Positions 1,408-54,934 of a stretch of DNA of 64,000 bases are shown here, in pieces. A program made the position numbers and the translations under genes. The DNA comes from Ascidia mentula. Lineage: Eukaryota; Chordata; Ascidiacea; Phlebobranchia; Ascidiidae. Position 1 is the stretch's first letter. The number at the start of each line of letters is the position of its first letter. Under the pieces are notes generated by a model. The model was not told the DNA's origin. It saw nothing but the letters and a program-made list of their open reading frames with translations, and ran no database searches. The stretch lies in assembly GCA_947561715.1 (NCBI GenBank), contig OX387197.1:19452266-19516265 (forward strand), given 5' to 3'.

Positions 1408-1541
1408 TCACAATTATTTCACGAAGTGTTAGCATTGTAATTGTGTCCCCATGTAGGGTGTGACGAAACAAAGGGAAATGTTCTTGTACATCGCACAGCC
1501 ACAACACAAACTAAACATTGGAGGCCAAGACCACATTAAAA

Positions 1542-14809: not shown

Positions 14810-17800
14810 ATTTAAATATTATAGAAACTTGAGCAGATCTAAGATAACACAAACATCCTTGGGTGCATGATTTCTTGAAGAAAATTATATGTATAAATAA
14901 AATAATCCTATACGACTTATTGGCCCATACTGTAGGCTGTATTATACTGCTTGTACCATTAGGTTAAGTAAATTTTTGCCTACCGTATCATTTCTAATAA
15001 GATTTTTATTTTTGTCACAAGCTACAGCTCTAAAATATATCAGACGTTTCATTTTTAGCAGTTTCGGTCTTTCGCCGTATTGTGGTATCACGCTAGCTTT
15101 GGTTGACAAGCTTCTGTAGCAACAATTACTCAAGCGTGTAACGAGTTGGTCAGTCATGTGAAACATGTAAATGTGAATACAGCAGGCTGTATCAATTTAT
15201 TTCTTCGAATGCGTATGTTTCGGCGTTTAGGGTAATTAAATACATTGCCCATTCTTGGCAGTGTTTGGTGGAATAAATTGTTGTTACTTGCTATATTACT
15301 AAATATGCAAGCCTTTGGCATCCAGACTAACAGCCCTAATTTACACTAGAAGGGTGTCAAAGGCCTGATCACGAACCGTTAATTTTTTAGGGCATGAGAT
15401 TTTCTAATAAAAATTTTTCGTTTGCATAATGGACAGTAACTGAATAAGAAATAGTAAAATATGGTCTTTGATGTATGAAAAGAATGTGGGTTATTAAATC
15501 AGGGGCCCAAACGAAATGTTTGAATTGAAATGATACCGTTGATAGCCTACATTTTTTTAAAATGCCCTAAAATTTGATACCCGATATAAATGCTTTATTT
15601 GTTACACTTGGTCTGCTGCACTAGGGTTACCAAATCTGTCGAAGAACCGATTTCTGTCGGACAAATTTTTGGGTTTTAATTTTAAGGGCATCTTACCTGT
15701 TTTTGGTCATGTTTGGCCTATGTTGGGGATCTCTGGCGTCTCAACTACGTAACATTACATTATTCATCGGTTACAAGAGGCGCCATGTTCAAAATCCTAG
15801 GCATTTCTCGAAAACCTCATTGCAACCACAAAACAAAAACGACCCGAGAAAAAGAATTATAATCGTGTTATTGTTGCATGAATGTTTGTGCTGCAAAACC
15901 GCATGGTATCGCGTCGTGAGGTAATAATTAAATTTAATTATTGATAAGCTGTATTGCATCCACAGTTTTCCGCAAGACGATTTAAATGGACATTAAACTT
16001 TTGAAAACTGCCAGTTCGTATTTGCCTTTCAATAAACCACATGTTTAAACAAGGAGGCGTTGATTTATAAATTGTGATTGGTTGGTTGTTACATAACTGA
16101 ACTCTTATAATGGGTCAGGGTGTGGTTTCAACACTTGCCGACGTTCACCGAATCCCAACATTTTACCTCGCAAAAACTATGTGTAAATCCCTGGTGTTTA
16201 ACGCTAATTCGTCACACCTAAATTATCACGTTTCAGTCATAAAGCGCTTTTCACTCAGGTTGGCTCTTAAAAATTAGACTACGGAGACGCCCTTTGTATG
16301 ACAGAGACCCATCATTTGTCTGTCCTCGCAGTTATGGGTAACATAAACATGTGACCACAAAGCTGTGGTTGCGTAAATTGCCACGAGTTGTGGCGTTAAA
16401 CATTATCGTCCTTGGTTTGGTATCGAATTTGTCAGCCTTATCCATGTAATCACTTTGTGGTGAAAGATGGATCTTTGTTCGCACTGGAAGCGATTTCTTG
16501 TCCGTGTTCTTAACACGTTTTTCGTGTCTCGTCCATTGTGTGACAAACAAACTCTTGTGGAGGCAAAGAATTATATTTTTGTCAGGATGCGTTGTAAAAG
16601 ATCATTATGCCGAACTTTTTCGACATATTCAAAAACATTCATTGTGTTGGTGTTAATGCGATGATGCAATGCTTCACTACCAACTAAATACGTCGTTTTT
16701 AATGCTATCTACTTCGACTTTCCAGGTGTTTAGAAATGTCGCTCTTTCGTCCACCAGCTGTGAAATTCGTTCTTGCGTTTTTTAAAAGTAATGTCATATT
16801 ATTGACAATATTACAACGCATCCCGGTGTCGCAACTTACGTGTATCGTCAAAAACATTCCTTTGTAGAAAGAGAAAATTGTTTCGTCGACAAACGAATGA
16901 CCTGTAAGGTGTTGAAATGTTTTATTTACTTGATATTGTTATTATTTAGTTGCGGGTGAGTGTTTCCGAAACAAAAATTTCAGTTTGCTAAACGGAATAC
17001 CGAAATTTCGAAAAAATTAGGAAATGCTAAAACGGAAAACAAAAGGGCAGAAAAATGGAAAGTAAATAACGCGAACCGCAGAATGTGACACGGTGCGCGT
17101 ATAGTTCAGGCCGCGCGGTTGTTTTACTTCGCGCGGGTCGCACGATATACAGTTACACAACATGCGGCCAACTGCGTGTGACTAAACGCCGCATCGACTG
17201 ACGCCCGGAACCGGTCCAGCGCGACACCAAGTTCTGTTAATGTGCTTCCCAACGTGCGTGTGGTCCCTTCGCGGGGCCCAACGAAGTCGACCGAGCAACG
17301 GGGCAAGCGTTTTGTCGTTTAGACACCCCCAGCGCCCAAGACATTCGTGCGACTATTTAGCGACTGTTTCGCCTCGGCGTGCTCAGCTGCAATGGTTGTT
17401 TTATAAACAGAGTGCGATGTACAAAGGTGAGGTTTGTGTTTCGCTTCCAAATCCGCACAAACTGTTTAGCGAGCTCCCGCCTGACACATGGTCTTAAATT
17501 TAGTGTTTGCGCACAAATCCAAAATTCCTCTCCGTCCTTCACCTGCAAACATATCAACAGACGAAGCGTGTTGGTTTCAGTGTGCGAACGCAACATGTCA
17601 TCAACTCTTTTTAAGAATCCGATACAAAATGTTGTAGCGAGTTGCGAAAGTTTGCTTCGTAAAAATACTGCATTGAATAAAGTATCAACCCTTATATTTG
17701 TTTTGTTGCTGAAAACATGACTTTGTTCGATTGAACGCGCGCAAACAGTAATGTAATCATCGTCGTTTGTAATTGTTTGTGGCTGCACAATAACGTGGGC

Positions 17801-21199: not shown

Positions 21200-23059
21200 T
21201 TAACATGCAACCGTGTGTTTTAAGTCCTGATGCGTCGCCTCATTCTTGGTAAAGCTGGATGCGGTTGGTTTTGTGGCGGATTGCTCCTCGGGGCGGATTT
21301 TACGCGGTCGGCCTTTTGGTTTAGTTGGAGGTTCGGTGCCGCCGCCCTGCAGAACCTGAATTCGAAGTGAAATTGGTTTAGAAATTCATTACGTTTTTTG
21401 TTCTATTTAACAAACAGTTAAACAACCATTCAAAACTAATTTCAAACGAAATAAAAAAAATGCAAAGTTATTTTTTATATTACCTGCTTTTTCCATTTCA
21501 TCCTTCTGTTCTGATACCAAGTCTTTACTTGGAGTTGGCTCAAGCCAAGAAGTTCAGCCAATTCGACACGATCCGGTGTCGAAAGATACTGTTGCTTTTC
21601 GAAACGCTTTTCCAACCCAAGCATCTGTAAATGTCATTAAAAACGTAATAACCTAAGCATATGTTTGGTTGCAAAATAAGTGGAGTTGATAACTTTGAAG
21701 AGAACAGCCAAAGCTAAGATGCTGTTAATCATATTAAGTGAACGTTTCGAACATATACTTGGTTTATCATCAGTACTACTACAGCTGGTTGTAGAAAAGC
21801 GTCGAGCTAAGCAAATGTATTCGTCTACAAAATAATGTCCTCATTTTCACACAAAAACCCACCTGCAGTTCAGTGAAAACTGTTCTGCTCCGTCGACATT
21901 TCTTCGGCTTTCCATTGCTTCCTTCTATCTCTGTGTTCGCACTTCCGCTCAGACGACTCCTCAGGTACGCGGGAAGATGGACGGTGTTCTTTTGTGGACT
22001 GCTCGGTGACGTCATCGACGTCGTAGATGAGGATGGTGAGGGCGGGTGGTCTGAGCCTCGTTCGGAATTATTCGGATCCGAATCGGAGAAGCAATCTTCG
22101 TTCATCGAAGGGTTGAGGTGGCAGCTGAACGACGATATTTCCTTCTCCTTAGCCCAACGGTCGTTTAAAGTGTAGCGCTGGTGCTGACTATAGTTATGAG
22201 ACCTTTCTGTTGTGGCTTCCCGAGTTGCTACCAAATGCCTGGCACGCTCGAGATAGCTGGCGTAGGCTGCCTCCGCGGTGGGGTTAACGAAGGCAGCGTT
22301 CGGGTACCCCATTAAAAGATGTGGGATCTGCGGGACTTGTAGTTGCCGCGCAGCAACGGCGTACGCATATCTTAAATCGATCATAGGGTAGTTGGCCGGA
22401 TTGAGAAGGATTCCTCTGTACATTGGATGGTTGGCCGCGTCTTCGTCGATGTGTTTGAGCAAGGAGTGACGAAACTTTTCGTAAGCAGGATGACTTGCAC
22501 CTTTTTCGCCGTTGTACACATCGGAGGGCGATTCCCTGGTCGCTGGATCGGTTTGTTGCTGTCCGGTTGTTGATCTTTGGTCAAATTCGGACGCCTCTTG
22601 CTCTTCCCACTCCGCTTTCCTAAGTTCTTCGCGGGAGAATCGGATGCCTCGACGGTCAACGGAAATTTCGCAAGCTGGAGGAGTTCTGGACCTCTTTCGC
22701 TTGGTCTGGTCCGCGGGAAAGCACCTTGTGTCGTCACGCAAGTCTTTGCGATCCGCGCTTTTCAAAATGGCGGATGTTCGTCCCTTGCACTTGTAGTTGG
22801 TGAACTCCGACTTCCACCTCGTGTTTTCCGCGGACGTTTGACTTTTCTCAAAATCGTCGTTCCAGGTGTGAGGGCTTCCACTTTCCGGCTCGGGACTCGA
22901 CGAAGAATCATGCGGTGCTGTGTTTTCTTCGTCCTGGTGATTGCTCTTTCCGAGGATGTCGCGGATGAGAAAGGAGGTGCGTCTGTTTGCGTCCGGCGAT
23001 CCGAACGGGGAATTCCTGCCCCGACTTTCCATCGCTGAAGGCCCGACAGTGGCAAGCAT
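21200..23059 (-). CDS. Barx: Barx homeobox transcription factor
   Basis: Three exons, 23059-21863, 21624-21484 and 21355-21200, encode about 497 residues, much longer than vertebrate BARX1/2 (about 250-280). The homeodomain is residues 388-447: exon 1 ends in [11 protein letters not shown], and exon 2 supplies [18 protein letters not shown] through [13 protein letters not shown]. Position 49 is Tyr and 50 Gln, as in Bar-class domains. Exon 3 opens [17 protein letters not shown], closely like the Barx-specific extension after the homeodomain, which separates it from BarH. FLIRDIL at residues 30-36 resembles an eh1/TN Groucho-binding motif. The rest is polar, Ser/Pro-rich, with a Ser stretch near residues 340-360. 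Introns are GT-AG in phase 0; one splits the homeobox after homeodomain residue 12. Start is the first ATG; Met10 is an alternative. Nuclear DNA-binding regulator by family. Confidence 0.93.
21709..21729 (+). repeat. 21-bp repeat, copy in Barx intron 1
   Basis: Second copy of the exact 21-base match described at 9000-9020, in the same orientation on the plus strand. Confidence 0.45.
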
Positions 23060-26000
23060 TTTTGTATTGCGATAATTGGGTTTTTTATGAGTTTACGATC
23101 GTTGCACTTACTGCCCTGTTTAAACATATCAATACGTTTTTTTTTACCTGCGCCACCACTTTGCCAATTATATAATTCATAAAATTTTCACATTGTTAAA
23201 AAATACAATACAAACAACCTTTCGGGTGATGTCACCACGTAAATTCAAGCAATTCTTCATTTTCCCGCTGTTCCTACCCTGACAGCTCGAAGTATTTGAC
23301 TGCGGTTTATTCATAATCCCTATAGGCCGCGGCATTACCTAATCGTCGCTTGTTTTCCTGTCTGACTTCCTCCCGTAACCCGGTAAGCAGGAGCCCCTGC
23401 GGCCTTGAGCGTAAGTCGATGTCTGCTACAGGCAAGCAGGTGCAGCTGCTGGTATAGATTACCGGCTAACTGCGCAGCCTTTTTTGTCACATCGTTTACG
23501 CCCGGTTTGATCTGCCTGATGCCTGTGCTCCAGTCGCGGCACATCCAGATGGTGAGAAGAAGGCACGCGCCGACGGCAAGTTGTACGCGATTGCGACGCG
23601 TCAACAGCTGATCTATTGTCAAAACAATCGCGAATATTAGCGAGCGCGATGCGCGTAAATACTTTGCCACAAGATAATCATCTCGTCTGGGTAGCTAACC
23701 AAACTGTACCATCATAAAGTCCGCTCGCCAGGTGCATTCTCCCGCAATTTGCTGTGTGCCACCACCGCCAGTTCATGTTTCAGCTTCACTCAATGACGTA
23801 AAATGCATAGCTTCGTGTTGAGATTAAATCCCGTAGAGGTTAGTGGCGCAGAATCTAACGACACTCAGAAGCATTCAAGGAAGGTGACGGAACTGAGCCC
23901 TGATCTTAATATTCCATTCATATTTCATCAAATCTAGAGCTTTTGAAGACGAACTTGTATGAATACGGTACTTTTTGTAGCTGGTAACATCAGTCATTCG
24001 AACTCAATAAACGATCCGATTTTTCATCCAGACCACGCCCGTCCGAGTTCAAACAGAAAACTACAGAGCGAAAAGTGTTTTTACTCCAGCCGTCTTCACA
24101 ACGTCGGAAATACACATTCAGGGCCGCGATCGCGTGAAGTGCGGGGTCCGATTCATAACTTATCGTGAGGACGCGAACCTATGCGAAGCAAAGTCCCGAC
24201 CACAAAAGACCATTTCCTGTCAGAGAACGTGCCCGAACAATCGAACGTCGACGCGAAAGCTGAAGAAATTTCAGAGGACGGCGGCCGACGATGGATGCGA
24301 GAGGACCCGATGCGATTTCACCAAAACGGGGGAACGTGCCTGGTTGGGCGACGATGGAAATAGATAATATTAGAGCAATCGGTCTCGAGCTGGCCCGGGG
24401 TCTTATGCCGTTCATGCGCGGGATGTTGTGATTTACCGACGCTTCGCGCCACGAGCCGCAGGTTCCCGAGCGGGAACGGGGGACTGTGTATATGATATCG
24501 CGTGTGCAACGCTCGATTCACTTCTGTGGCGTGATTGGATAAATGGACTAGGATTGTTGACAAAGTTTCGCGCCCTCACCCGCTACCGGATGAAGGCGCC
24601 TTTGCTCGTGAATGGAGCGAACAATGGCAAATATTATAAGCTCGTCGCAGCACCTGAGCGTGGCGCGACCCTTCGCGAATTAACCTTGTTCTTTAAATAA
24701 ATTTTCTGTGATTTTCGAACACGAGACGTGTCGCTCGTTATTGACACTCATCGATTAAATCATCGGTAATTTCAGACAGAGGAACTTGGAACTGCGTACA
24801 AATGAGAAATTCTTTGGCAATCGCCAGCGCGTTATGTCGCATACTTAGCGCAAGGTCCTCGTTTCTAGGGCTGTTGCCATCAACATAACAACACAGAAAA
24901 CACCCTTTTTTGATGAAGGTAAATGTGCCAACGCCGGGGTCACAAGTTGGAACTCTTCTACTCCCGGCAATGCGCGCAATGCGTTTTAACGATGCCTAAA
25001 GTTTGAGACCACAGGCGTCGGCACTCCAGCGGGGTAATGCTATGGACATCGGCATTTCCCGCGACCGACCACTAGCGCGTCGTTCGCAAGGCCAGAACGC
25101 GACAGGAAACGTGGGACTCACTCGCGAGGCGCAGGTCCTGGGAATATATTGTGTTCGAGAAAGTCGTATTGCCAGTCGAAATGCGACCTCATTGTATCAA
25201 GTGATGCGGGGTGAACCTATCTGAAGCTATTTACTGAATGCTCAAGGGAATGTGACGACCTTCTACAAGAGGGCCTTACTAGCCCGCTCAAAAATGTAGC
25301 AGTAAGTGCCCCAAATTCACCGAGTTCAATAACCGCATGTAAACAAGGAAACTGAAACGCTCACACGTTTCCCTTTGTATTTCCTATTTGGGATAAACAC
25401 GTTGGAATAACAGTCGTCAGCACCATCACAATACCAACGACCTGCGGAAGCACTACCGAAACCGCGATTTGGCAAAACAACGAATCGGGTGTGGACACTC
25501 CGCCACCCATCATCTGCTCTTCTTCACTTGTGCCAATCAGTGGCCATGCGATCGCCACGATGAATGGCGGCGTCACGCAAACTCGTTTGTTTCCCAGCAC
25601 AATTTGCCGGCCCGCAAGTGGGGAATGATGGGTGGCGCGCTGTTTGCGTGATATAACGGTGACCCGCACCACAGGTCACGGTGTCACCTTTCTATATCTA
25701 GATTGCGGCGATACAGGCAACAATCGTTGGTAATTAATATCTTCCTCGCAGGCAATTTGCGTCCAGGACAGGTTGTCTTGTCACGAGACGGTAAATATGT
25801 GAAGATGGTGTGGCGTTCACACATCTTGTACATATAAATTACCTTAGACGGTTTGTGGTTATGTTTTCAAATTATCTCATTATCTTTTGTACCAAGTCTA
25901 ATGAAAAATTAGAACCTGCCGGGGAACTATACTTTGCAAATGGCATGTGTACTTGATACACATGTTGTTCAGTGCAGGATGGCACAAAACATGGCAGTCT

Positions 26001-33010: not shown

Positions 33011-36000
33011 ATGCCTGCAGCGAAATACCGAGAGTTCGCGCTGGCTGCCAACGGACAACATCAGCACGGCAACTGCGAAAAGGCGAACATCTACGTCAAG
33101 GAAGGTTATCGCTACTACAGCGCTAACAATGGGACAGCTGGGTGCGATCAGGTCTTCTTCGCTTCGGACGAGTATCGCCACACGCAAAACGCCCCTTACC
33201 AGAGTAAGAAGATCCGCTACGACGTCAGTCATGATTACGTCAACGTGGGTCCCTTCGGTGCAAATCTGTCGGCGCCCGCGGGTCGTCCTGGCCAGTTCAA
33301 AGACGGCGGTGAGCTTTATTATCCAGCCAAGACCGAGTTGCGCGAAAACGTTAACGACGGCGGCAATTTCTATTTGGCCCTTGATGGACAGCCGGGTTGG
33401 CGCGACTCGCCGCCCGCTTACAACAACGGGACAAAGGCCGACGGCTATAGCAGGATGGACACGTACGAAAACTACCCGTTTTGCACTACTTTCAGCGGTG
33501 CTCGAACGTCGCAAAACTACACCAACACACGGGATTGTGTTCCTCTTGCACAGTTTGGCCCTGATTTCGTTCCGGTCAATACTAAGCCGGAGTCTTACCC
33601 TTACATGTGTCATAACGAAAAAGGGCGTACCAGCTCGGAGCACATTTGCACTGAACAGCTCAAGTTATCCGTTTCCAGTCTCAATGAACTTGAATACGCT
33701 ATTGAGCATTGCAAAGAGGTTGAAGCACGAGCACTTGACACTCAGCAGCCCGATTGCCACAGCAGCACACAAAACCTGGGGGAAACGACTACTAGCAACG
33801 CCTTCTATTCACTGAAACCGTGGTCACCGCAAGGCGACAGCACGTTTCTGGCCGACGCAGACAATCAGCATTTGAACCCAGAGATAAAAAACCTCCAACA
33901 CCAATCCGAAATACACTCCAACGGGCAAAACGCCGTGAAGGATATTCCTAAAAATGAGCAACGTTCAGCAAACAAAGTTAAAGTCGTTACAGCAATCAAC
34001 GGCCAAATTCGGAGGCTGCGGGAGGAAATGGTGAGCTAATGGTTGGTTTTTTAACCTTGTTTTATTGAAAGTTGGTCGGGTTCACGCGCAGCTGGTCGGT
34101 GTTGCCAAAATCCTCCCGTAAATATAATTGTGCATTGACTCAGAAGGCAAACAGTTGTTGGCCACCCTGGCTCTATCGCCTTCCATTAGGCGGCCGCAAA
34201 AGGTGGATTTAAGGCGGGCAAACACTCTCTAGTCTAATTGTACGCAGTAAATAGAAAACTGATACCAGCACGCGGCGATAATAGAGGAAGCCAAATGTTG
34301 GCGACCCATTACACTACGCTTCAAATGGCCGATTGCCCTGGCTGACACAGGTCACAACTGATGGTCTTTGATTCGTGTTCGTAATACCATCATATAAAGA
34401 TTGAATTTACAGCCATTAAAACCATAACCACGTTCTACCAGCACAATAACACTGTCTGCTTCCATTAAACAGACATTCACTCAAAAGGAGTCAACAGTAT
34501 ACGACGCATTTTAAAACTGGTCATAAATAACCGTATGAAAATGAACGTGGACATTTTATGTATTTTACTGAAAGAGTCTCCACACAGCGGAACACCACAT
34601 AAGGGGCACTGAAATAACAATGTCTGAAACAGCCTCCAGACTGCCAGTAACCCAATCAATTGGCCTCCCGACTGCGGCACCTCAAGTTCAAAGCCGTCCT
34701 TGAGTCTTGACCCCGAATGTTGTCGGTTTATTGCTTTCTGCTCGAACTATTGTAAAATATGCATGACGTTAGCCCGAGCACGACGACCCTGTGTTCAAAA
34801 CAAACCCAGTCGACCTTGAATTATGATAAATACTCCCTAAATGGTACAAAGCATTATGTCAAAAAGTTATTTTGCATGAAAAATGTGTATGTGTTGTGGT
34901 AAATGTTTTGAAGGGCAGAGATATGGCATTTAACGCGCAGTAACTGGTGCCAATCACGCCAATCGGGTATCTGGTGCCCGAAAACATTTGCAACAATCAC
35001 GCATTGATTATATCTCAAGATATTTAGCAATACCACTTATGTTTGGCCGCAAACTGGTCTTTTTACTAAAATTCATCTTAATGACCCACCCCCAGAAAAC
35101 ATGCAGCACCGTTCAACAAAATCAATTGATTGTGACGTCAAGTTTGCATTTGAAAAAACAACGAAAGTGCTTTCACCCATCAGATGCGTGTTTATGTGAG
35201 TCAATTGGCGCTCGGTGATTCACCCAATTTAGCGACGCCCGGCGTCCGTCACAAAGACACCAAACAAACACGAGGTCTGATGCGACACTTTGTAGCGAAA
35301 AGGCCGCTGCCCACGCGATCCTCTTGTCACGAAATCAGGTGACGAGGTGTTACCGTTCCCATCGTTCAGGCACACGATACCAAGTCGTGCAAAGGCGATG
35401 ATGACACCCCTCGGCGTTTTTCACATGTCAGGAATGCACTGTTTCCTGTCGGTCATACGGTGCGGTCCCCAACAGCAAAGGGCCACCGACGTCCAAGCCC
35501 CAGTTTTCCGCGCCGCGGGAACGTTCAAAAAATGTCAGGGGCCTAAGTGTCAGAATATGATTTTTCGTCTCGAGTCGTGGAAGTGAACAACAAAGCCCTC
35601 AAGAGGCTTCGATGCGGCCGTCAAGAGTCCAGTGGCCCGCGACGGCGTTACTCGTCTCGCCGGGGAACCCATCCGACCCGTTTCCTGCCGCTCTCTTGTT
35701 GGTTTTTGCCTTGGTTCGCTGAGTCGTGTTGTGGGAGCCTTGCGCTCGTTTCCGGAACGTTCACATTACCTGGTGGATTGTTATCTACTCATCTATGTGT
35801 TTGCGTCCCTTACCGGGCGTGTTGGCTGATGCGAATTCCAACAGTAACAAACTGTCTGTTTCGTATTAAAAATAATGGACTCACGAATATGCGCGTTCAC
35901 TTTAATGTCATGCGATTGGACCTATACCTGTAACCGCTACTTCAATATTTAAATTATCGGGTAATTATATCCGTCGGCATTTTTCGCCCCTTTATGGCAA

Positions 36001-39000
36001 CCGCGCAATTTATTCTAATTACAGGCATTTGTACCTCTCAAATTATCCGATTTGGTTGCATACACTGGGAAATTTAATTGAACTTTTATCATTTAACTCG
36101 TTCGCTTTAATTTCACGCTAGATCAAAACCGCGTGAAGAACAGACAAAAATGCTTTTGCTGGGTGTGACAGAACTTCCTCGGCATGTGGTTGTTCATCCA
36201 TTTGCAAACGTGGCTATCGTCGTGTTTGGTTCTGTGGCTGCGACCTCAAATTTCGTAGACAATCTCGTTTCAACAGAAGTGCCGTTGTCAAACAATGGAA
36301 TGCGTTTGAGAAACACGCAATCCACGTTTTTTTACCAACTGTGTTCGCAGGAATTCGGAAATGACAAACATATTTGTTTCCCACAGTTCCATAATGAGAA
36401 ATTTGGTGTTGGCGTACATAAACCGTGTAATGATTCGATGCCTCTCCTGTAATTGGACGTTTGCTTCCGGAACCGATGAGATTCAGGGCGAGGCAGCTGT
36501 ACCTCTACGCAAATACTACTTGTCGATCTTGACAGGTGAAATTGATATTCGCATGCCACATTCAAATTCCGGAATTACGAGGAAAGTATCTTAAATATTG
36601 TTTTGTCGGGAAGTCAATCCTCTGCATCCAAACTATTTCGGCGGTCTCGCGAATTGACGCTGGGATGACGATCGTCTGGCATCGTGCGCACGTTATTATG
36701 TTTGTTTATGTCTATATGCTGCCGAACCTCGTTAGGGCTCGGCTCCAGATGAAAGGTGACCGAAAGAAGCGAATTACTTCGGCTTGTCAGTGACTTTGAC
36801 TTTCGCCTCAAGTGCTTGCAACTTAACCATAACCGTGTTGGTATTTGGGCTTAAACATTGAAGAGCGTCAAAGGTTCCTAAAATACCCCAAATGTCACCT
36901 AACAGTGATTCACCTCTTCTGTATGTGAAAAATGATCTTGAGTATATATTTCCGAACGTATGTTCGTTTCTGTGGTTGGAAATCAATGACCGAATTGGGA
37001 GTTTGCGGACTTTAATAGGCGGCTTTGTGTGTCGGTAAAGTTCCAAGTTCACCCAGTGGGCGACCAAACAATGCAAGGGCAAGTTTCCCATGCTGTAACA
37101 TGATACAGGGACCCCCATTGGGCGTCCCGATCACAGTATAGGTTACAGCTCTGTTGGACTAGACAAGGGGACTCGCATGACAAAACCACACGGCTTGAGT
37201 GTGTTGTTAATAGTTAGCACCTTGGTTTGCTTGGGCCAACAATGATTTTCACAAAATCGCTTTTCGTCAGGCTTTTTTGAAACAATGTAGGCGTGAAGTG
37301 TACATGATGCATATTTTTCTCAGTGGTTTTGTGGTGAGTTTCTCCACTACTTGTGTTCTTTGAAGTGGTTGGCGTTAATTGCTGTTCGGAAGCTGTAAGA
37401 GCGCATGCCCATGACCGTTAATCGTTCTTCGCCTGTCGCAGGTATTTTGTAGCAAACGCGTGAAACCTGCCATTACGTCGTCCTCAACACGTCAGAAGCC
37501 GCTTATAAACACTCTTGACCCGCAAGACCTTAGGCATCTTTCTCAATCTCTCTTCACTCTTTAGCTGATCCGGTGAAATGACTGCGCTGATGGCCGTCCG
37601 CGTTCGCCAAATAGCATCATCCGTTAAAATTGCTCAATGTTTTTACAATTACACCTCGCATGCGCTCGTTTATGGCGTCGGACCGATCTCCTGTAATTGC
37701 AGGCCTGGGAGGAGCAAACCGCTGAGCGATGGTAAGTGCAGGCTGCGGGTGCGTGACAAGGTTTTCCGTGGAGTTTTTACAATAGCCGGTCATTGTTCGG
37801 ATCATTGACGTTGCCGAGGAAATGTAAAAACTCCCATAACGCGCACACATCACACGATCAAACGCTGTGCTTTGGCAAAGTGGCCAGAAATCACAGACGC
37901 ATTTTGATTCCCGAAATCAAAACAAGGCTTCTCTCGCAATGGGCTGTGTTGTGCTTGGCGCTGTTGAAAAGCGATCCGCATTCCGTTGGATGAAATATCG
38001 CCCTCTCGCAAAAGTGCTAGCCTGGGCCTCCGACGTTAGCTTCCTGACCCAAACAAAACCGTTTCGTCATGATCCCTTTTTAAAGCACCGCTCGAGCGAG
38101 AAAATACATAGGGTTTACTGTGGGGCGGTTTCCTGAGAAAATCGACTCGAAAGGATATTGCGTTCTCACAAGCATTGCGCAGTTACCACACACAGTTCTG
38201 CAAACGCAAAAGCGCAAAAATATGCCAGCAGCTTAATTAATTTGTGTCTTCTTCTTTAAAGAATATGTTTGATTGCAACGAAATGCTGCTTATAAAGTAT
38301 CCGGTTTGCATTAACTGTTATTTTTCTCAAGTGGAGCAAAGTTTGGGAAGTAGTTTTGGTTTGTTATATTGGGTTTCACGGGCTTCGGACAGTTTCACTA
38401 TACATTCTTTCCTCCAGTTTACACTTGTCGCAAACTCCTTCCATCCAATGATGTACGCTTGTCTTGTAATCGCCAGACGGATTTTGCTTTGGAAGAAAAT
38501 CACCGCGGCTATTTACTTGTCAGTGTGATCAAATAGCCTGAAACATATTCTCAAGTATTGTTACAGTTCGTTCCAATGATCCTTAGCTTCGTGGCTTCAG
38601 GTGTGCCGTTCGCCACGAGGTACCCACTTCACATAATTTATGGATGATGTTATTGTGATCGTGAGCAGTTTTAGTGCTGAGTACTGTGTTCTTCACACTT
38701 GCTCATGCCGCTGATGTCATACCTTACTCATTAAGACTCCTTTTATTAAGATTTATTTCCAAGTAAAATCGATTTAATTGGCGTAAAAACAAGTTCGGGT
38801 ATTTTTTAAACATAAACCCGACTGGCAGTTTTTTTTCGCACCGGCGACCTGTGTTGGTAAGAAAAAGGCTCGTAACTCGAAACCAGTGGTTCATCCAGAG
38901 TGAAGTTACGTATTGGTGTACTCGACAAATGTTTTGTTTTCCCGTGCGACTTGAGGTCAGCATCACTCAAAACTCTCGGGAGCTGCGAAAACCGCCAAGG

Positions 39001-42000
39001 GGACAACAACCCTAATGCTCTACCACTCCTTTGCGTAACACCGTAACGACCGAGTGCTGTTGTTTACACTTTCCCCAGCGAATTATGTCATACTTCGAGA
39101 ACACCTCTCACCCATAACGCGTTGTCATCAGAATCTCCTTGATTTTGTGGCATTTCCTGTTGCCAAAGCGGCACAAATAAATTTCGGACAACAAATATTG
39201 ATTTGCCGCGTCCCATGGTTCCGCACAAAGGCCCATTGTGCGGGATAAAATAACACCATAGCTTGCAGTCATGCAGCAAGCGTTTTCGACGCGTACAATC
39301 ACGTAAATGCTGGTGGCCTCGCTCAACACACGTAGACGATACGACTGACGCACTTTGCAAACAGCAACGTAGCGTTGGGCTTAAAGAAGTTTCAAAAATG
39401 TTTCAACACATGGAAGATAAGACACGTAGGGCGTCAGATGACGTCACGACAAATCCGCAGATTTTGGGATTTCGTCAAGTCGGCGCAGCTGTGGGCCGTT
39501 GGAGGCCTGTACGGGTTGCAAACTTGTCTGAAAACATTCGCATTAAAACACGTGACTCGTAAGCAGCCACCCATGATTGATAAAGTTACAAGCCATGGCA
39601 AACTCGCTTAACCCGTAGTGGCTTTATATACACACGCTTTAATGCGATTAGAAAACAATGCACCACATGCTCATAATTTGATTCACCGCCGGCCTTAACG
39701 CTCCTATCCAGTTAGGCACGGTTTAGCTTCATGGGAGGTACCGTATGTTTACGACTTTGCAAGTGCATTCAAAGCAATAAAGGCCCAGTTACAAGTTATT
39801 TGCTGATTGTTTTTGAGGGCGGTAGCTAATCAAGGGTAAAAAACAGGGTTCCGATTGAAGCCTCCTCCTTGGCTTTGCTCGATCGCCTTTGAATGGACAA
39901 ATAATCCGTGTTGTGAAACTGAATTCGACTGTTGGTTGAGCGTAGTTCGAGTGGCTTTATTTTAACCCCAGTCCAGACACAAGGTTTCAACGGGTGAGAT
40001 TTCTATAAAAATCGTCTTTTTGCATTATTGTTTGTTTATTTAGCAGGTTATCAGTTTTTTAACTCAATTTGTGAAACATCAGACAGCACTCGTTTAAACG
40101 TAACTCAAGTTTAGAAACAAGTATGTTTACAGTTGTTTATCCCACCCAGGACCAATTTAAAGTAATTTCGACAGACGCGAACGTCGATCGGTCAAATGAC
40201 GCGTGCTAATGTTTTCCTTTCGCAGTTGGAGCTTCGTGCCGCGACGATGACCTTCAAAGAACAGATGGAGAAAATGTTCAGCGATTTGGCCGCGCTCAAC
40301 GGCGTTATGCGCTTGGAGGAAAGCAAGATCCAGCAGCAGCTTCCTGGAGCTTCTGAGAACCAAATCGTCAGCAGCCAACCGTGCGAACTGGAAGAGTCAC
40401 CACGCGAAACCGACGAGTTTCCGGATCGCAGGTAACCGCGCCCGTGATATTTTGCCTTGCTTTCCGCGTCGCCTGCGTTGGAAAACAGCAATTTCCTGTC
40501 CGTTTGCCCGCTGTTAGAAAAACAGGTATTGAAAGAATACCCAATATGCCTCACTCGAAAGCCGCTGTCTCAATAGTGAGGCACAGTTATATTAAACCGC
40601 AAAGAACTGTTAAATGGCGCTTGATTTATACGGCGCCTGTCAATCAACTGGTTTAAATAAGGGCTCCAAGAACAGCATATTTATATCCCCAACACCACAT
40701 TTATGACGCTTTCCATGTTGTTTTGTGCAACTCAGGTCGCCAGAAACTCCGAATCAACACCACGATATGGAAATGTCTTCCTTGTCGCCCACGCCCACCA
40801 ATCAAGTGTCGGATCTGTTCGTCTTCACAAACCCACCAGATAATAACACACAACAGAGCAACAATCGCTCCAGCCACGAAGTACATTTGGAAAGGTTAAT
40901 TGATGGAGGCGAGAAGACGGTCACCACGAAACGCGGAAAGTCGAACGAGCGTCCCAATTCTGACTCGTTCGCTTCCACTCTCGCCGCGCAAAAGCCCCTG
41001 GACAACCAATTATCGACCATGTCTCTCCCACACTCGCCGTCGGGTGGTGTATCCGCCAAGAGACTAGCCGGCAGGAACAGCAGGCACGTAAACAAGTCAA
41101 CTGGCGAAAACCTGCGAATATTGCCGGTTCTGAGTCATTCAAACGCGGCACTCCACACGAGTGAGTGCAGTATTGACTCGGGCTATCAGGGGTCATCAAT
41201 AACTGCCCCGCGAGAACGCGGACGCGATCTGACGTCACAGGTTGTTACGCCCGCTTCTCCTATCAGCGAGTCGCCGGTAGTCGAAGAAATGTTTTCCGTC
41301 GACTCTAAGGGGCCGCCAGCCGACGCACAGGAAGCACCAGTCGGACAAGTTTGCCCCAAGGCGCGCATTAGCAGCAACAGCGACGAATGCGCCGAAGTGT
41401 TTTGCGAAGGTGTGACCAGCGAGGCCACTTCGTTTCTAACCAGTGCGCACTTGGAATCATTTGTTCAGCCCAAACGACCGAAGCCGAAGTCTCGCGGTGA
41501 CCTGTCATCTTCGGACAATCTCGACGTGAGCGGAAAGGAAGCGCCCGAAATAGCGGAGCCCGTGAGGCCCAAGCCCCGTGCTTCGCATTCCAGCAGGCCT
41601 TCGACGTCGAGCGAAGTCGGTGAAGAAGTGTTGAAAGTGGTTCGGCCCGTGCCCAAACCTAGAACCGCAGTATCGAAAGACAGTGAAAAGGGATTGCATC
41701 ACTGTATTGAGGGCAGTTCTGCGGGTGAAGGAAATCAGTTGTGCGACGATTCTAGAAGTTATTGCACGGAATCGTTAACAGGGAGCGAGGTGCAAGTTGA
41801 AAGTGGAGCAATGAGGATTTCCAATTCATTGACTCAAGTTTACGCAGTTGACTATGTCAAAAACACGTCACAGACAGACGGACAACAAGTTCCAAAGCAG
41901 TCTCCACTGCAATGCTTGACTGTCATAAAGCAGAGTCCGACAGCTCCGTCGGGCCCAGCAGGCGCAACATCAGCTCAAAAGCGCATTAAGCTCGGTGTCA

Positions 42001-45000
42001 GCGCAATCTCTACGCAGCACAGGGAACAAGCAAAGGTGACAGTGGATGAGGTGCGATTGAGGAAGGCAAACAATACGAAGCAAGCGCTAAAAGAAAAGTT
42101 TGCCGCCGTGTTGGAACATTCAAACGCCAAAAACAAGGCAAACGGAGCATGTGCTGTGGATGACAGTGAATTATCAGTTGTGCGGCGAAGATCTATGCGG
42201 ATGATGACCGAGTTTCAAATTTACGACTTTAAGGATTCTTCCGCCAGTTTAACTAATCTGTTAAACGATCCTCTAGACGTCGGGAAACTTTCTGAGCCAG
42301 GATGCATTTCATGTTCCACGTCCAACCTATCCGCGATTGCATCCAGCGCTTCCAAGGCCTTTTCCGTGTCTACTACGTCAATCCCAAAGCAAACCGTACA
42401 AAAAGTCGAAACGACGAACCGGGACCAGCCCAATCCAGCGCGCCAAAGCCAACAAGATAAAAATCAAAGCGCGGTGCCGCTATCGCGATCGTTACAAGCC
42501 AAGCGTGGCGCGCACGTGATCTACACTTCTTGCCACGCTTCACTGCCCCTGCCGCCCCCGCCTCCACCACCGCCGCGATCACCATCTGTCGTAGAAAAAC
42601 CTCCGTCGGTCGGCGGATCGGAGGTGAGCACCTACTCCGAATTAGAGCTTATGCCCCAATCTTCGAAGAGACCCACCGCTCTTCTGCCAAGTCACCTCAT
42701 TCGACCCAAACCCGTCCCGATCGGAACATCGTGCGACATCGCGGCGCAGCAGGCCAATGGCGTCGCTGCAGTAAAATTGTCTCCGAGCGCAGGATCAGCT
42801 TTTACGCCTGTTCTGTCGTCGAGTCTCCGATCTTTGCAAGATAAACCGTCGCCTATAGCAGATCGTTACGACGTGCCCTACTGCCCTGATACGGAATTTA
42901 AACGGCGCGTTTCTCTTCCCATGTCATCCGTCTCAAATCGAGCAAAAGTTCTGGCTGAAATTCTCGTTCCCAATCACCAAACCAGCGTTCCCGGGGAAGC
43001 ACAGAGACCAAGCGATGGCGCGATTTATGAAAACGTACCCGGTCTACAAAGGCGTACTTCACTCCGGAAACAGAGGAAAAGCGATCAACTGGGATCAGTA
43101 ATATCAGCCGAGGAGGCGCACGTCACCAGCTACAGCGTCTACAGTCAACCAAGTACCGACATCCCGCAGCAGCCCAAGGAAAATAGCAATTCCTATGACC
43201 GCGTCGAGGAGCGCAGGCGACCGGCGTACCCCGAACGTACTCGCTCTTCATCCGCCAACCGGTCTAACAAGCACGACTTGGAGAATCAGCCTGTCAGATA
43301 CAATCGCACTGACAACATTAAGCACGTAGTCAGTGCCTTAAGGACGGGTGGATACCTCGTCGCAGAGACGCCACCAACGCAGAACGGACACCAGGTATTA
43401 TCATCATTATTACATATGGTGGTAATAGCAGATATATCGCCGATTCCGACGAAGTTAATATATAGTTGGCGTCAGTATTATTATAGTCCTTATAAACAGT
43501 GCATCACGTCTTACCATACAGAGTTGACTATTCATATAAAAGCTTCGAAAGCTTCCTGGTTGTTGTGGTTGCTGATAGCAGGCAAAACTCATCGGTTCCT
43601 ATAACACTTTTGGTTGCATGTGTTGCAAGTTTCAGCCCAGCGCGCCCATAATCCAACCATGAGTCACCCAGCTGCCTACGCGGCTTCTTTTACTTTTGTG
43701 TCATCGCCTCGATCGTTTATCGTCTACAATGCAATGCCGCACGCGAGTGGCAAAGGGCCCAAACCCAACCCATCGTCTCTACTCCCATAATGTACAATTT
43801 GCCAAATGACGCGTTTTGTTTGTCTTCAGGTGTCTTGTTCCACCACATCGTCATTGACGAGCTGCAAGGGTGGCGGAACCTCAAGTCAACACCAAGCGCA
43901 TTCATTTGTGAGGTAAGACAATTTTGCGAACAGTTTCTAACGTTTAGGGCTTAAAAGCGGAAATGCCGCGTGTCTATTGAGGATGTACTGACAAACGACG
44001 TTGTTTAAGGCGCGGTGGAATCAATGCGGAACGACCGCCTAGGGATTTTGCTTGTGTATATATTTCGTTTCGGAGACAAATAAAAAGAATTGTGTCCCGC
44101 GGTCGGGTTTGTTATTCTTGATTTCGCGGGGCCACACACAGACTGTTTTGACCTTCGAGAACGGTGTGACCTTGGACACGTGCCCCAAGGCCTCCATGGA
44201 GTTAATCATTTCGAATTTTCGGGTTAACCTTTCGAAAAAATGCGACTGTTTTTCCCTTGTGTGAACTTACTTTATGTTTATCAAAAGTAATGCTGTTATA
44301 CTAGAACCCAACAGACAACGTGGATTGGCGCAAATTGTATTCTTTTTATGTTTGTAGAAATACAAAGCCACGATCGTCCACCGGATCACGCGTCAATAAG
44401 AAATCAGAAAACCACGATTACGAAACGGTGAGGAGTGCGGATCACATCACTAACGTAAGTTTAAATTGCAAATTTGTGCTACCAACTTATTTTTGGATGA
44501 ATAAGCTGATAATTCTTTTCTTCTTTCAGTTGAAAACGGACATCTCGTCTGCTGCGGGGCGACACCGCTCGGTATCCAGAGAAACAGTGGTCCGACCACA
44601 AGAGAGCGCTGCGCCTCTGCCATCACCATCGAAAGGTCACAAGTCGACTGTGGCTTTTTTGCGTGCCAGTTTTATGGTGAAGCGTGAAAAACCTCCGCGC
44701 AGCGCCACCACGGACGGGAAACGTGAAAGTGCGTCAACAAAGATCCAAAACGAACGCTCGAGATCCATCTCAGCTGGCGGCAAGAGCAAGAAACAGGACT
44801 CGCAGATTGCAAACCAGAAACCTTCTACCAAATCGAAAACCAGCGCGGAGTCAAAGCCAAAAGAAGCAATTAGCAGTGGAAAAAAGTCAAAACACGACAC
44901 GAAGCAGCCCAAAGAAGGCAAGTCGACTAAAAAGAACAACAAATCCGGCGGCAAAGAGTCGCAAAAGAACAGCAAGGATAGTTCCGCTCCTTTGCCACGT

Positions 45001-45261
45001 GGCGATCCAATTCGACATGGCAACGCCGATTCTGAAGTTATGGAGCGATTTTTGGCGGCGGCTGCAGCTTCACACACCACCCGTTCACCTTTGCAAAAGT
45101 TGCGCAGCTCCTTTCGCGCACCGCGCAACAAAACTAAGTTCCTTCAGGCTGCTCAGACCAACCGAGTTAAAGACGACATGGACATGAACCGCATTGGCGA
45201 CGCCAAGATCGCTGTAGCAAAGAAAGTGCCCCTACGGCAAGACCATTACACTTACGTGTAA
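33011..45261 (+). CDS. Large docking/scaffold-like protein, family unknown
   Basis: Six coding exons, 33011-34030, 40226-40431, 40736-43394, 43830-43912, 44358-44454 and 44530-45261, join in consistent phase with GT-AG introns and give about 1,598 residues. I do not recognise the family. Visible features: a Tyr/Asn/Gly-rich N-terminal third with YVNV at Tyr76 and YENY at Tyr152 (Grb2-type YxN); a heptad-like stretch across the exon 1/2 join (about 328-385); basic-proline SH3 ligands at about 650-715, including RPVPKPR, which fits the PxxxPR motif bound by CIN85/CD2AP; a polyproline run near 1010; YDVP at Tyr1120 (Crk type) and YENV at Tyr1173; a Lys/Ser-rich basic region from about 1390; and C-terminal TYV, a class I PDZ ligand. 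No kinase, PH, SH2, SH3 or membrane segment is seen. Likely a cytoplasmic or cortical adaptor, by inference from motifs only. Confidence 0.7.
34031..40225 (+). other. 6.2-kb first intron of the docking-type gene
   Basis: It starts GTGAGC after codon 340 and ends TTTCGCAG, phase 0. It is over ten times longer than typical introns in this window. Open frames on both strands inside it (for example 36774-37118 minus and 36150-36452 plus) have no family resemblance. It may carry regulatory DNA or alternative first exons; I see no mobile element in it. Confidence 0.6.
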
Positions 45262-47861
45262 CGCGTGATTTACTATCGCGGCACTGCCATATAAGTGGGA
45301 AATTACTTTATGAGCTTTAAGAATATGCATTGTTGTTTGTTGTATTTTCTGTTGTTTTTTTCTTGTCTTTTAGACCATGGCCGACTTCTTCTTTACCAGA
45401 TGTGTATATTTATTGTGTTGCTGGAAACACAGCGTGATTTTTAGTGTTCCCTCTGTTCGCCATTGCTCTGATAATACCGGCCTCCTTGCTTCGTTTTTTT
45501 TTACTGTAACTTCCTGCGCGTTATTTTTAACACACAGTCGCCTGTATTTCCCGACTTACATTAACAATACATGGTCGCATGATGCGTACACTTTCAATAC
45601 TTAATTAGTCTAGCAGAGCACAGTTCTCACAAAATATACGCATTAAACATCGTGAGCATTGCAAATGGCTTCAGGGTTTATATACATCACAAGTAGTAAC
45701 TTCGAATAAATCTACAACAGAAGGAAGCAGCACTAATAAAACAATGGATGACAGACAGATCCCTTGTCAACAATTGGTGTAGGACTAGTTTTATTAGTCG
45801 TTGCATGCGTAAAGCTCACCAGATGCTGCCATAGTACGTGACGTGACGTGCGTATCAGTGGTAAAAGAAGAATGTTGTGGAGGTGATGTTATCCTCAATG
45901 TTTTTAAGGGTGCACTAATTCTTCAGCAGGTATTTGCGCATACTGAACAATATGTTTTTTCAGCAGAGAGAGCATTTTAGTGTTGTCGTATTATATTACG
46001 CCGAACTAAATAAGCTGCATGTATTTGTTGTAGTGTTAAGCTTTTACGACGACTAAGGCTTGCTACCGGCCTCTACATAAATTTCAGCATTGAACACCAA
46101 AGCATAAAAAGTACAAATTCCAAGAAGAACATTTCAATGAAATAAAAGCCCTTACGCTGTGCGTACAATAACGATACCGTCGAAGCGAGTCAGTTGCAAG
46201 TTTCAGAATGTGACAAAAAGTGGTTATAAAGTAAGAACAAAGCAAGGTGATTGTTTGGGTTTGTGGCCTGTAAACATGATTGAGTTTCATCACTGACAAG
46301 AATTTAGCGCAAAACTAAGTGCTTGGTATAACAGCAAAGTTGAACGTGAACAACGAACCAGAGCCGACATCTATAAACTGTGAGTATTTGTCTGCAGTTC
46401 ACAGTTTACCACAACTTTGACTTTCTCCGCATGTTATTTTTGGTAAAATTCGCCCACATGTTAGAACATCACCTCCGCTTGTTACACCCTACGTATATGT
46501 AGATTACAAGTGGTAGTTCGAAGACGCAACTCTTGATCAGGTGATTGTATACTGCCACTTGAAAGCATTGGAAGATATAATACCCCTGAGGCTATAAAAT
46601 TCTAAAATAGTATGCTCAGTGAGGTTGCATTCAGCACTATAGGTGTCTGAACAACGTGTCTTACAGAATATAGAAACAATCCCTTTGGCGAATAACCTTT
46701 TTACAGATAGACACAGCAATGAGCCGTTAGGCAGTGTTTTTATTACAATATTTAAGTAGTACGTTCAAAATTTGCAGCCTAGATTTTTCTGGCAGATAAA
46801 CAAAGCACCACACATTGCGCCAGTGGAATTTTCAGTTGTGTTTTTTTGTTAAACAAGCAAACTGTTATGTTTAAAGGACCAAGAATTCAACAATTTTATC
46901 CTGCAATTTTATTCAATCTTCGGAAAAAAGTAAAACCGAAACTGATTGTAGAAGCCCAACGGAGACGCACTTTACCTAACTAAAGAAATAAGTAACAAAC
47001 ATTTTAATGTAATTTGCTTGGAATGTCTAAGCCAACAATGGCGTTGGTTAATGAATCACTAAACTATAGGTGCACGAAGGTAGCAACGCCATGGAGGCAC
47101 GTTTGTGGGTATACTGGTACTACGGGAGAATGCCGCCTGGCAAGTTGTACGCGACAGCACTGTGGTGACCAGTTTAAATTCACCGGGACCGAAGATTTGT
47201 AGAAATCGAACATACTTTAGTGTGTTTGTGGCGACCTGTAATGTTTGGCAGCCACACTTGTCAGCATAAACTTAACATACTTGCAAATGTAAATTTACAT
47301 TTGATACTATTCTGCCTTCTCATCGCTTGAAACTTATGAATATGCTGGATCTTCCGTCCGAACAGTGATGTCATATTACAACATCCGATTAATATCTAAT
47401 CGTGTGCGTACAACCTATGATAACTTAATCATTGTTACCTTATAAATGTGCTGCATTACTCGTCCTGAATATATTTGGCCAAAGGAAGAAATTTTTTTAA
47501 ATCTTAGCATATACTTTTATACGTATTCAGGTTTTTTGTGGTACAACTTATGCAACTCTGTACCAGTATAGGTTCACGTTTGCTGTCCTAACCTGATGCC
47601 CTTTTCGTTTACCACTCAACCACAGAGTCATGTCGCTAAAAACGGAAGAAGGGAATGTATCGACTGAAGAAAGGTAGAAACGAAACGACACAGCGCTAAG
47701 TTGTATCATACACAAACGTTAAAATTTCAACCCATTGTGATGGCCGCTTCGGCAATATGCTAAATTGCGTATAGCGTAGTTATTTTTCAAAATGTATGAT
47801 GCGTTACCCAGTCTGAAACAATATAAACAAGCGGAAAGAAGTTTGAACTTCCTTTTCTCAG
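45262..47861. other. 3' UTR and spacer before SLC35E3
   Basis: The first 450 bases form the 3' UTR of the docking-type gene, ending near the poly(A) signals at 45705-45740. The remaining 2.1 kb has no supported gene. It is AT-rich with short minus-strand open frames that lack any domain. Confidence 0.5.
45705..45740 (+). terminator. Poly(A) signals of the docking-type gene
   Basis: AATAAA at 45705-45710 and again at 45735-45740, about 450 bases after the stop codon. Confidence 0.55.
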
Positions 47862-52159: not shown

Positions 52160-54934
52160 TCAATCGACCTGGGGCACAGTTATCGTCTTGCTTTTGGGAT
52201 CGTCGAAACGATCCATGGTGGTAACCTGGGAGACCATGCCCAGGCCATAGAAGAGCATGACGATCATTAAGAGCCCAACCAGAAGGCCCATCCATATGGG
52301 CCCGGTGAACCAGCCTTCACAATCCAGTGCACGAGAGAAAGTATTGTTGGAGACATCAAACGACTGGATCTGTGACAATTAAAAAGCGAATTGAAGGCTG
52401 GAAATTTTGCATCAGATCACACACTGTCGAGTAGTGTCAATTTCCTTGATTTGAGATGTGAAACTTAGCTGTTGTTCGCGAAACTTTTGATTCGACTCGT
52501 TTTGAACCGAGTATTTATTCATTCCCATACACATACGTTTGTATTTTGAAACTATAATTCTTGCACCGTGAAAGTTTCAAGTGTTTACATTTTCTAACTT
52601 GATACCTTAGCGGCGTAACCCTGACTATACAACAAACATGTCACTTAAACGCCGGACAACCTGCACGTGGACGAATTCCAGGTGAACTTGATTGTCTGTG
52701 GTGTTTCCCACGTAGGATATATTTCCGGGAGCCTGACATGCGAATGACCAACCGACCGGAGCAGTCATAGTGAGGTTGAAACCTCTTGGGTTGAGATTCC
52801 GTGACATCTCTTCGCCGTTTATAGTGTAATTGACCGTTACGCCGGCCAGGTTCCACCAAAACAACTGCGAGTTCGAGTAGTAAATCGACATGAAGTCATA
52901 TCTGCGTGAATAGAGAAGGGTTAATTTGCAATAGAACTAATCTTCTGGCAAAACTTAAGGTAGTTTTTTTCTCCGACGTTTTAGCTGCCACATAGCCAGA
53001 TTTTATTAGAGAAGTGGTAAATTGTTGTGAATTGCTTGCAACCCTGCTTTATTAGAACAACAACAACATACCTCACTGAAACATCACTCAAAGAAGAGTT
53101 AGCGGATGTGTTATACACCATAACAGCGCTGCAAAAATGTTTGCATTGTTAATAAACAGATTTTTAACAACAAAAAAACACAAACAGAATCACTGTATAC
53201 CTGTTGAAGCTGGTGCTGTTGGTGGAATTGCCCTGGGCACAAACCTCTGATATTGTAGGGCTGTTGCTAGCTAGGAGCTCAGTTTTGTTTGGGCCCACAT
53301 ATAAAGTAAGTGACTCATATGCCATGTAGGTGCAGTTGCCAATGAAATATGTTGTTCCATTAGCAGTTTCTTCAATTGCAAGCAGATGCCTGCTTGAACC
53401 ACTTGCCATTGAAATTTCTCGTTTCTGAACGTAATTAAAATGGTTCAAAGAAGTTTTTATTACATATGTTGCGGAACGCTGACTTACCACCACATTTTCA
53501 GCAGTCACAATAGCAATGTAATTTCCTTGGAATTTATCCAGACTTTCCTTTATTTCTTTGTCTAATTAAACAAACATAATCATATCAAAACCATTCTAGA
53601 TTTTTCTACATTTTTTTCGACAAAAACAAAAACAACTTAAATGGTACAAAATTAGATTGCAAATTATGTTGTTTCAGAGGTCGTACCTCGGGAGGCAAAA
53701 TCAAGTATTGTTGCAGATTGTGACAATCTGTCAACAGGCTTCAGTGAAATTGTTTCAATATCACTTCCTTTGAAGGTTTGTTTCAACTTAGCAAAGAGAT
53801 CATCAACAATATTGGCAGGTTCAATGGAAGGAACAACAAGTGATGTGTTGTACTTGCTTATGTAGTTCTGCACAAAATAAAAAGAATCAGTTTATAAGTA
53901 ATAAAAATTAAATGTTTTCTGTGCATTAGTGATAAATAAAATATTTTTATTCAAAATCAGACAGTGCCTTGGAAGTAATGTACATTAGAGTAACACCACA
54001 ATGCTCAAATTATCAAAAGTTGTTAAGCCAAAAAATATTCTAAGAGCTCGGTAGATTGTGCGGGTGCTTTGCTTTTGCTTTAACACATCAAACATAACTA
54101 CACAGCTAACTAGGTTGTTAATTATCCATATCGATCATTGGCAAATAATAGCATCAACAGATTTGTAAAATAAGGTTTTAAGAAATTACTTACACGAATG
54201 GAAGTAAAAGCCTTAGTATTTCCCAGCAATGTAAAATCTTCGATGGAAAGCTGCAATAAACAACCACGATTTTGTTCTAATTTGGTACAAATATAAACCA
54301 AATGGTATGTGAAAATGTACAAAATACAAAAATATATACTAGATTGGAAAGTTTTGTATTTATGAGGATTTTGTTCGGCGATCGCTAATTGTGCGAACGG
54401 CAATTAGCGATCACCAAGTTTTTCGAATGTTAATTTATTGCACAGATTATCAGTCAATTTTCGCAAAAGTTCTCAGAGGCTTTATCCTACAACACTTATT
54501 CCAATCTTGTACATATATTGATAGACTACACAAGATATGCGTTTACAGTAGGCTGTGTTATGTACTAAAGCACTAGTTTTAATTAACCTACCTTGTCATG
54601 GGTAAACATAAACACTTTCTTTGGATGAACCTGTTTAAGACATTCCAAATATTGATCAGTAAACACAGAAAAAACTGTTTCTCCAGGACCCAGATCTTTA
54701 TGAAGTGGACATGATGGAGAACTGAAAAAACAAACGGCTAGTTGTAGTCCAAACACAAATTATTTGACCAAAAACATTATCCAGCTTTAATCACATTCGT
54801 AACAGTGTTGGGAATGAAATGAAAACTTACTTTGTGTTCGACCACAATAAAAGCGGCACAAATTCCGAGGCAAGGGTAAAGGAACTTAGTCCGAGACACA
54901 ACACAAGTGTTAACGGACCTTTACTTACTAACAT
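52160..54934 (-). CDS. ATP6AP1: V-ATPase accessory subunit Ac45
   Basis: Nine exons, 54934-54831, 54721-54592, 54250-54194, 53867-53687, 53561-53488, 53424-53201, 53128-53072, 52901-52661 and 52369-52160, give about 425 residues (human 470) with all phases consistent. Ac45 helps assemble and steer the V-ATPase that acidifies lysosomes and secretory organelles. Exon 1 encodes a signal peptide (about residues 1-22) followed by EFVPLLLWSN (human QVPLVLWSS). KLSIEDFTLLG matches human LSLDDFTAYG. The luminal part has many N-glycosylation sequons. The C-terminal exon has GWFTGPIWMGLLVGLLMIVM (human IWMGLLTSLFMLF) as the membrane helix, then TMDRFDDPKSKTITVPQVD, almost the human tail. An acceptor-like TATGTAG ends 19 bases before the ATG. 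Confidence 0.95.

Follow-up and report, generated by a model that had tools for sequence, protein, structure and literature searches.

A single-copy six-exon gene of Ascidia mentula encodes a candidate linear-motif scaffold without a Pfam match above cut-off

Introduction

Docking proteins of the Gab/DOS, IRS, FRS2 and Dof type have a domain for membrane targeting or receptor binding (PH, PTB or DBB) and gather SH2- and SH3-domain partners through tyrosine and proline motifs set in a long disordered arm. p140Cap/SRCIN1 and NHS/KIAA1522 are large disordered cytoskeletal adaptors in which regions rich in Tyr, proline-rich regions, coiled coils and basic regions occur together in a single long chain. 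The PxpxPR motif is bound by the SH3 domains of CIN85 and CD2AP, with partners such as CBL and BLNK, according to ELM (PMC8728146).

Here we analyze a gene from a 64,000-nucleotide window (the whole stretch of DNA that was studied) of the ascidian Ascidia mentula, the product of which shares features with each of these systems. Like the Gab/DOS, IRS, FRS2 and Dof proteins, this candidate scaffold would present tyrosine and proline motifs on a long disordered arm. However, a PH, PTB or DBB domain was not detected by Pfam in the 1,598-residue protein. Gab, IRS and FRS2 have an N-terminal PH and/or PTB domain, and neither was matched when all six frames across 23.1-33.1 kb and the forward frames between 34.0 and 44.0 kb were scanned as well; the protein is therefore not assigned to the Gab/IRS/FRS2 class. 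The apparent likeness to p140Cap/SRCIN1 and NHS/KIAA1522 lies in the combination of regions named above; the candidate differs in having no Pfam match above cut-off. With the CIN85/CD2AP partners it shares, at the level of sequence, a PVPKPR motif with RPKP-type motifs nearby, but the Pfam search detected none of the domains of CBL or BLNK.

Gene structure and coding evidence

The gene comprises six exons (33011-45261; all exons and motifs described below lie on the + strand), which join to 4,797 nt and translate into 1,598 amino acids with a single, terminal stop. All five introns have GT-AG borders, with phases 0/2/0/2/0. Exon 1 (33011..34030) encodes residues 1-340, a Tyr-rich N-terminal region ending in the start of a putative coiled coil; the remainder of the coil falls in exon 2 (40226..40431; residues 341-408 plus two bases of codon 409). 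Exon 3 (40736..43394) extends from the last base of codon 409 to residue 1295 and encodes a long Ser/Pro-rich region with no domain. It is followed by the short exons 4 (43830..43912; 83 nt) and 5 (44358..44454; 97 nt) and by exon 6 (44530..45261; residues 1356-1598 and the stop), which encodes a Lys-rich basic tail (13.9% Lys). A possible polyadenylation signal, AATAAA, is located at 45705..45710 (+), with ATTAAA at 45642 and a further AATAAA at 45735 nearby.

Coding periodicity is seen in the three long exons 1, 3 and 6 (period-3 signal to noise of 11.9, 8.5 and 3.3, respectively, versus 0.6 for intron 1). The scores of the short exons 2, 4 and 5 (2.6, 1.1 and 0.7) overlap with those of introns 2-5 (1.2, 2.0, 1.8 and 0.9), so that the periodicity test is uninformative for these exons. 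Exon 3, at 2,659 nt, is free of stops in its own frame, while the other five frames contain 35, 35, 39, 29 and 29 stops. Its donor, GTATTA, looks weak by eye. The initial annotation had described six exons in matching phase encoding about 1,598 residues. This description holds, given the joined frame, the GT-AG borders and the one terminal stop, and judging from the sequence the six-exon gene model is real.

Alternative transcript forms can be envisaged at either end of the gene. Intron 5 (44455-44529) is 75 nt long, a multiple of three, with an open frame; its retention would lengthen the protein by 25 residues, with VSLNCKFVLPTYFWMNKLIILFFFQ as a hydrophobic stretch (19-residue hydropathy at best 1.32). 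Removal is favoured because the intron, at 28% GC, is far more AT-rich than the exons. Exons 4 and 5 together form a 180-nt unit, and joint skipping could keep the frame. Upstream of the gene, an unpaired acceptor-like sequence, TTGTTGAGCAG, has its CAG ending at 32963, 47 nt upstream of the ATG, and an in-frame stop at 32957 immediately precedes this CAG. A possible explanation is an upstream exon and intron, or a trans-splice (spliced-leader) site.

Copy number and search for relatives

Exon 3 DNA (2,655 of its 2,659 bases) had one match in its own genome (195.8 Mb, 79 contigs). In protein-level searches of this genome (E up to 10), the query of residues 1-420 hit two places, namely exons 1 and 2 (2 candidates scored), and that of residues 421-1598 hit four, namely exons 3-6 (34 candidates scored). 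No paralogue was found in the 195.8 Mb at this threshold, this copy being the only one detected. An origin from a repeat or transposon was ruled out, a single copy having been found in the genome. Five tandem repeats were detected, none of them inside 33011-45261, and the Rfam and tRNA scans gave no Rfam match and no tRNA.

Searched against Pfam, the 1,598-residue protein matched no family above cut-off, in line with the initial annotation, which recognized no family; two weak matches below cut-off corresponded to the polyproline and the coil. A sequence search of solved structures (PDB) returned no relative at E up to 10. With exon 3 as the only query, 9 pattern matches in prokaryote contigs and 1 in viral contigs yielded no confirmed relative. 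Pfam scans of all six frames upstream (23.1-33.1 kb), with stops replaced by X and E up to 1, revealed no exon encoding a folded domain, and a forward-frame Pfam scan of 34.0-44.0 kb revealed no domain hidden in the introns. The downstream forward frames (45.3-55.3 kb) produced only a sub-cut-off match to BTB_SANBR. Among the matches listed in a literature search, by text and not by sequence, no ascidian protein could be equated with the gene product. The word "orphan" therefore means here only that no relative was detected in Pfam, among PDB sequences or, for exon 3, among prokaryotes and viruses; animal collections are outside this scope.

Such an apparent orphan could be orthologous to a scaffold or cytoskeletal adaptor already known from animals, the tunicate protein having evolved so fast that it diverged past detection, for which we see a probability only slightly short of even. 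Some disordered scaffolds, NYAP and NCKAP5 among them, are modelled in Pfam, so that the absence of any family above cut-off counts against this explanation. On the other hand, the composition is prone to disorder, one copy was found in the genome, and homology detection failure can reportedly explain many lineage-specific genes (PMC7660931). Descent from a known adaptor is compatible with a scaffold mechanism and thus contradicts novelty only. That the protein belongs to a known family and its homology escaped detection is no less probable than that it is truly novel.

The genome also contains two matches to GH6 glycosyl hydrolases above the Pfam cut-off, compared to none in 14 control genomes; one of the two loci reads by eye as a GH6-like exon. 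GH6 genes have been described in tunicates, possibly acquired by horizontal transfer (PMC7464555 and PMC10334666). The two matches fit a tunicate host without proving it, as GH6 is not exclusive to tunicates.

Coiled coil and predicted disorder

The top-scoring heptad window of the entire protein, residues 326-360, spans the junction of exons 1 and 2 in a single register; its first part (residues 326-340) lies at 33986..34030 (+). The score is home-made; when residues 316-385, a region preselected as coil-like, were shuffled 500 times, 0.4% of the shuffles reached it. When exon 2 was modelled alone with AlphaFold, it formed a 37-residue helix (block-mean pLDDT 84, 96, 93 and 75), the first thirty residues being confident. 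Exon 1 alone, modelled from its single sequence, had a mean pLDDT of 32.6 and a helix at residues 314-339, with values above 50 only in approximately the last ten. This pLDDT is too low for a fold search and, the input being one sequence, disorder and a missing alignment are indistinguishable in it. By the home-made score and the exon 2 helix, residues 326-360 have the hydrophobic heptads within a helix that are expected of a coiled coil. The possible coiled coil proposed earlier thus has a signal in both the heptad pattern and the modelled helix.

The same junction bears on whether the model fuses two genes, exon 1 (340 residues) and exons 2-6, across the 6.2 kb that separate them. Intron 1 is indeed long, and the composition of exon 1 differs: it contains 21 of the 40 tyrosines of the protein, or 6.2% Tyr compared to 1.8% in exon 3. 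However, the intron has a canonical donor (GTGAGC) and a canonical acceptor (TTTCGCAG) with matching phases, the heptads cross the junction in one register, and both flanking pieces are modelled as helix up to the junction, with low confidence on the exon 1 side. A fusion is very improbable, and the heptad register and the helix models on either side argue that exons 1 and 2 are truly joined.

The protein is probably mostly disordered, as judged from its composition, the case being best for exons 3 and 6. Its mean hydropathy of 0.407 is only slightly below the charge-hydropathy boundary (0.421), and the blocks of exon 1 tend toward lower disorder scores. Nowhere in the protein does hydrophobicity reach that of a membrane span (the highest 19-residue mean is 1.01).

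Proline-rich and C-terminal motifs

Motif counts were compared with shuffles within 100-residue blocks (2000 shuffles); 24 classes were counted, 21 first and 3 added. The individual motifs quoted in the initial annotation all exist, namely YVNV at residue 76, YENY at 152, YENV at 1173, YDVP at 1120, PVPKPR at 713, the prolines at 1015-1022 and the terminal YTYV.

The clearest departure from chance was found for proline-basic motifs resembling SH3 ligands. The class RPKP/RPxPKP/PKPR, which was written down only after the sequence had been viewed, had six overlapping matches in four places (residues 656, 686, 712 and 1065) against 0.06 expected, a count reached in 0 of 2000 shuffles. These places comprise KRPKPK (residues 655-660; 41472..41489), RPKPR (residues 686-690; 41565..41579), PVPKPR (residues 713-718; 41646..41663) and RPKP (residues 1065-1068; 42702..42713). 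PVPKPR, which had been singled out as CIN85/CD2AP-type, is present within this cluster of similar proline-arginine motifs and matches the ELM class LIG_SH3_CIN85_PxpxPR_1, making it a putative ligand by sequence match. PxPxPR was found twice against 0.05 expected (0.25% of shuffles), with one of the two matches inside the polyproline run; a single clean PxPxPR outside that run is roughly a 5% event. The run itself, a Leu followed by eight prolines (residues 1014-1022, prolines 1015-1022; 42549..42575), was also rare in shuffles (1 observed versus 0.02 expected; 1.7%). Ordinary class I and class II SH3 motifs were at or near chance (3 and 2 observed, 1.1 expected in each case). Basic-directed Ser/Thr sites were enriched (12 versus 6.6 expected; 2.5%), as suits many kinds of disordered protein.

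Class I PDZ ligands have Ser or Thr at position -2 and a hydrophobic residue at the C-terminus. The gene model ends in YTYV-COOH (45247..45258), with Thr at -2 and Val at 0, and thus has a class I-like ending; by the protein's own composition such an ending has an estimated frequency of ~3%, making the match weak alone.

Tyrosine motifs

The tyrosine motifs had been presented as a coherent phosphotyrosine set, which the counts do not bear out: the Grb2-type YxN and Crk-type YxxP motifs are as frequent as in shuffled sequence of the same composition. YxN occurred 5 times (2.7 expected; 12-13% of shuffles), YxxP twice (3.1 expected; 83%) and YDxP once (0.18 expected; 16%), all at chance. The possible SH2 ligands YVNV (residues 76-79; 33236..33247) and YENY (residues 152-155; 33464..33475) accordingly belong to a class at chance count. 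Two YxxM motifs (0.45 expected; 7% of shuffles) are not convincing, and NPxY and YxxQ are absent from the 1,598 residues. Since the YxN and YxxP counts match the shuffles, most of the claimed set is not evidence.

Y[DE]x[VP] sites, a class picked after viewing the sequence, were found 4 times against 0.6 expected (a fraction of 0.0022 of 5000 shuffles). They include YDVP (residues 1120-1123; 42867..42878) and YENV (residues 1173-1176; 43026..43037), together with two sites new to this analysis, YDRV (residues 1229-1232; 43194..43205) and YETV (residues 1344-1347; 44419..44430), the latter in exon 5, so that the joint skipping of exons 4 and 5 would drop it. For the wider pattern Y[DE]x[VPILM], the 4 matches compare to 0.97 expected (1.7%).

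With the majority of motif classes at chance and the two enriched classes chosen post hoc, the tyrosine and SH3 motifs may be incidental to a different kind of disordered protein, such as one binding the cytoskeleton or microtubules through its basic tail and helix. The abundance of Lys in exon 6 is in line with such a protein, which we regard as a real if somewhat doubtful possibility. Against it stand the six overlapping RPKP/PKPR matches where 0.06 were expected, and the 4 Y[DE]x[VP] sites where 0.6 were expected.

A possible linear-motif scaffold

The gene model, the one copy found, the lack of a Pfam domain above cut-off, the helix and heptad signal and the presence and counts of the motifs are direct observations. 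As the gene is real, is the only copy found in its genome, has no recognised Pfam domain and combines a coil signal with a CIN85/CD2AP-like cluster, its product can reasonably be read as a linear-motif scaffold. We give a little less than even weight to a large, mostly disordered cytoplasmic scaffold that would self-associate through the coil and bind SH3, SH2 and PDZ domains and lipid. The signalling scaffold of linear motifs proposed in the initial annotation thus stands in part, on the coil signal and the proline-arginine cluster, and loses the support of the YxN and YxxP motifs. The post hoc definition of the two enriched classes, RPKP/PKPR and Y[DE]x[VP], among the 24 counted weighs against the scaffold, as do the single clean PxPxPR outside polyproline, the weakness of the C-terminal match alone, the narrow margin to the disorder boundary and the failure to detect a PH or PTB domain.

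We infer the binding partners, phosphorylation, location and function of the candidate as follows. A helix of ~65 residues (314-378) would mediate self-association. In the central Ser/Pro-rich arm, the repeated proline-arginine motifs (cluster at 655-718) may recruit CIN85/CD2AP-type SH3 proteins, and the polyproline run could bind EVH1 proteins or profilin. The four distal tyrosine sites, with an acidic residue at +1 and Val or Pro at +3, would once phosphorylated serve as docking sites for SH2 adaptors, Nck or Crk for instance. The basic tail and the C-terminal TYV might tether the protein to the membrane by contacts with lipid and with a PDZ protein.

More specifically, the gene could encode a docking protein of the tunicate lineage without vertebrate counterpart and without PH, PTB or SH domain, built only of linear motifs and a coil, that couples tyrosine-kinase signalling to endocytic or actin machinery of the CIN85/CD2AP type at PDZ-organised membrane sites. 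We consider this unlikely; in kind, the gene is unremarkable. A confirmed scaffold would give chordate signalling a wiring hub specific to one lineage and provide a test case for the origin of disordered scaffolds or for divergence beyond recognition. At present the product is one of many uncharacterised and probably disordered proteins in a fast-evolving chordate group, and the gene is mainly useful as an annotated locus whose motifs can be tested.

Other loci in the window

An open frame of 530 codons at 1515-3107 (+), with no Pfam family above cut-off, is perhaps another uncharacterised coding exon. At 13919-14818 (-), an ORF with ISSTFVDLEEEF matches DUF4062 (E 3e-6, 27.8 bits), above cut-off when the ORF is scored and just below it in the six-frame read (23.4 versus 24.7 bits). 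DUF4062 occurs in NACHT/TPR-type proteins. A Homeodomain match at 21487-21630 (-) (Pfam E 6.4e-16, profile positions 10-57) adjoins an ORF at 21779-23092 (-), the two being reminiscent of a homeobox gene of Barx type with an intron between its parts; by calculated position, this locus is situated on the opposite strand, ~10 kb upstream of the candidate scaffold gene. Finally, a match to the transmembrane domain of the V-ATPase accessory subunit Ac45/VOA1 at 52199-52315 (-) (E 8.7e-13; position calculated) suggests that part of 52-60 kb is occupied by an ATP6AP1-like gene.
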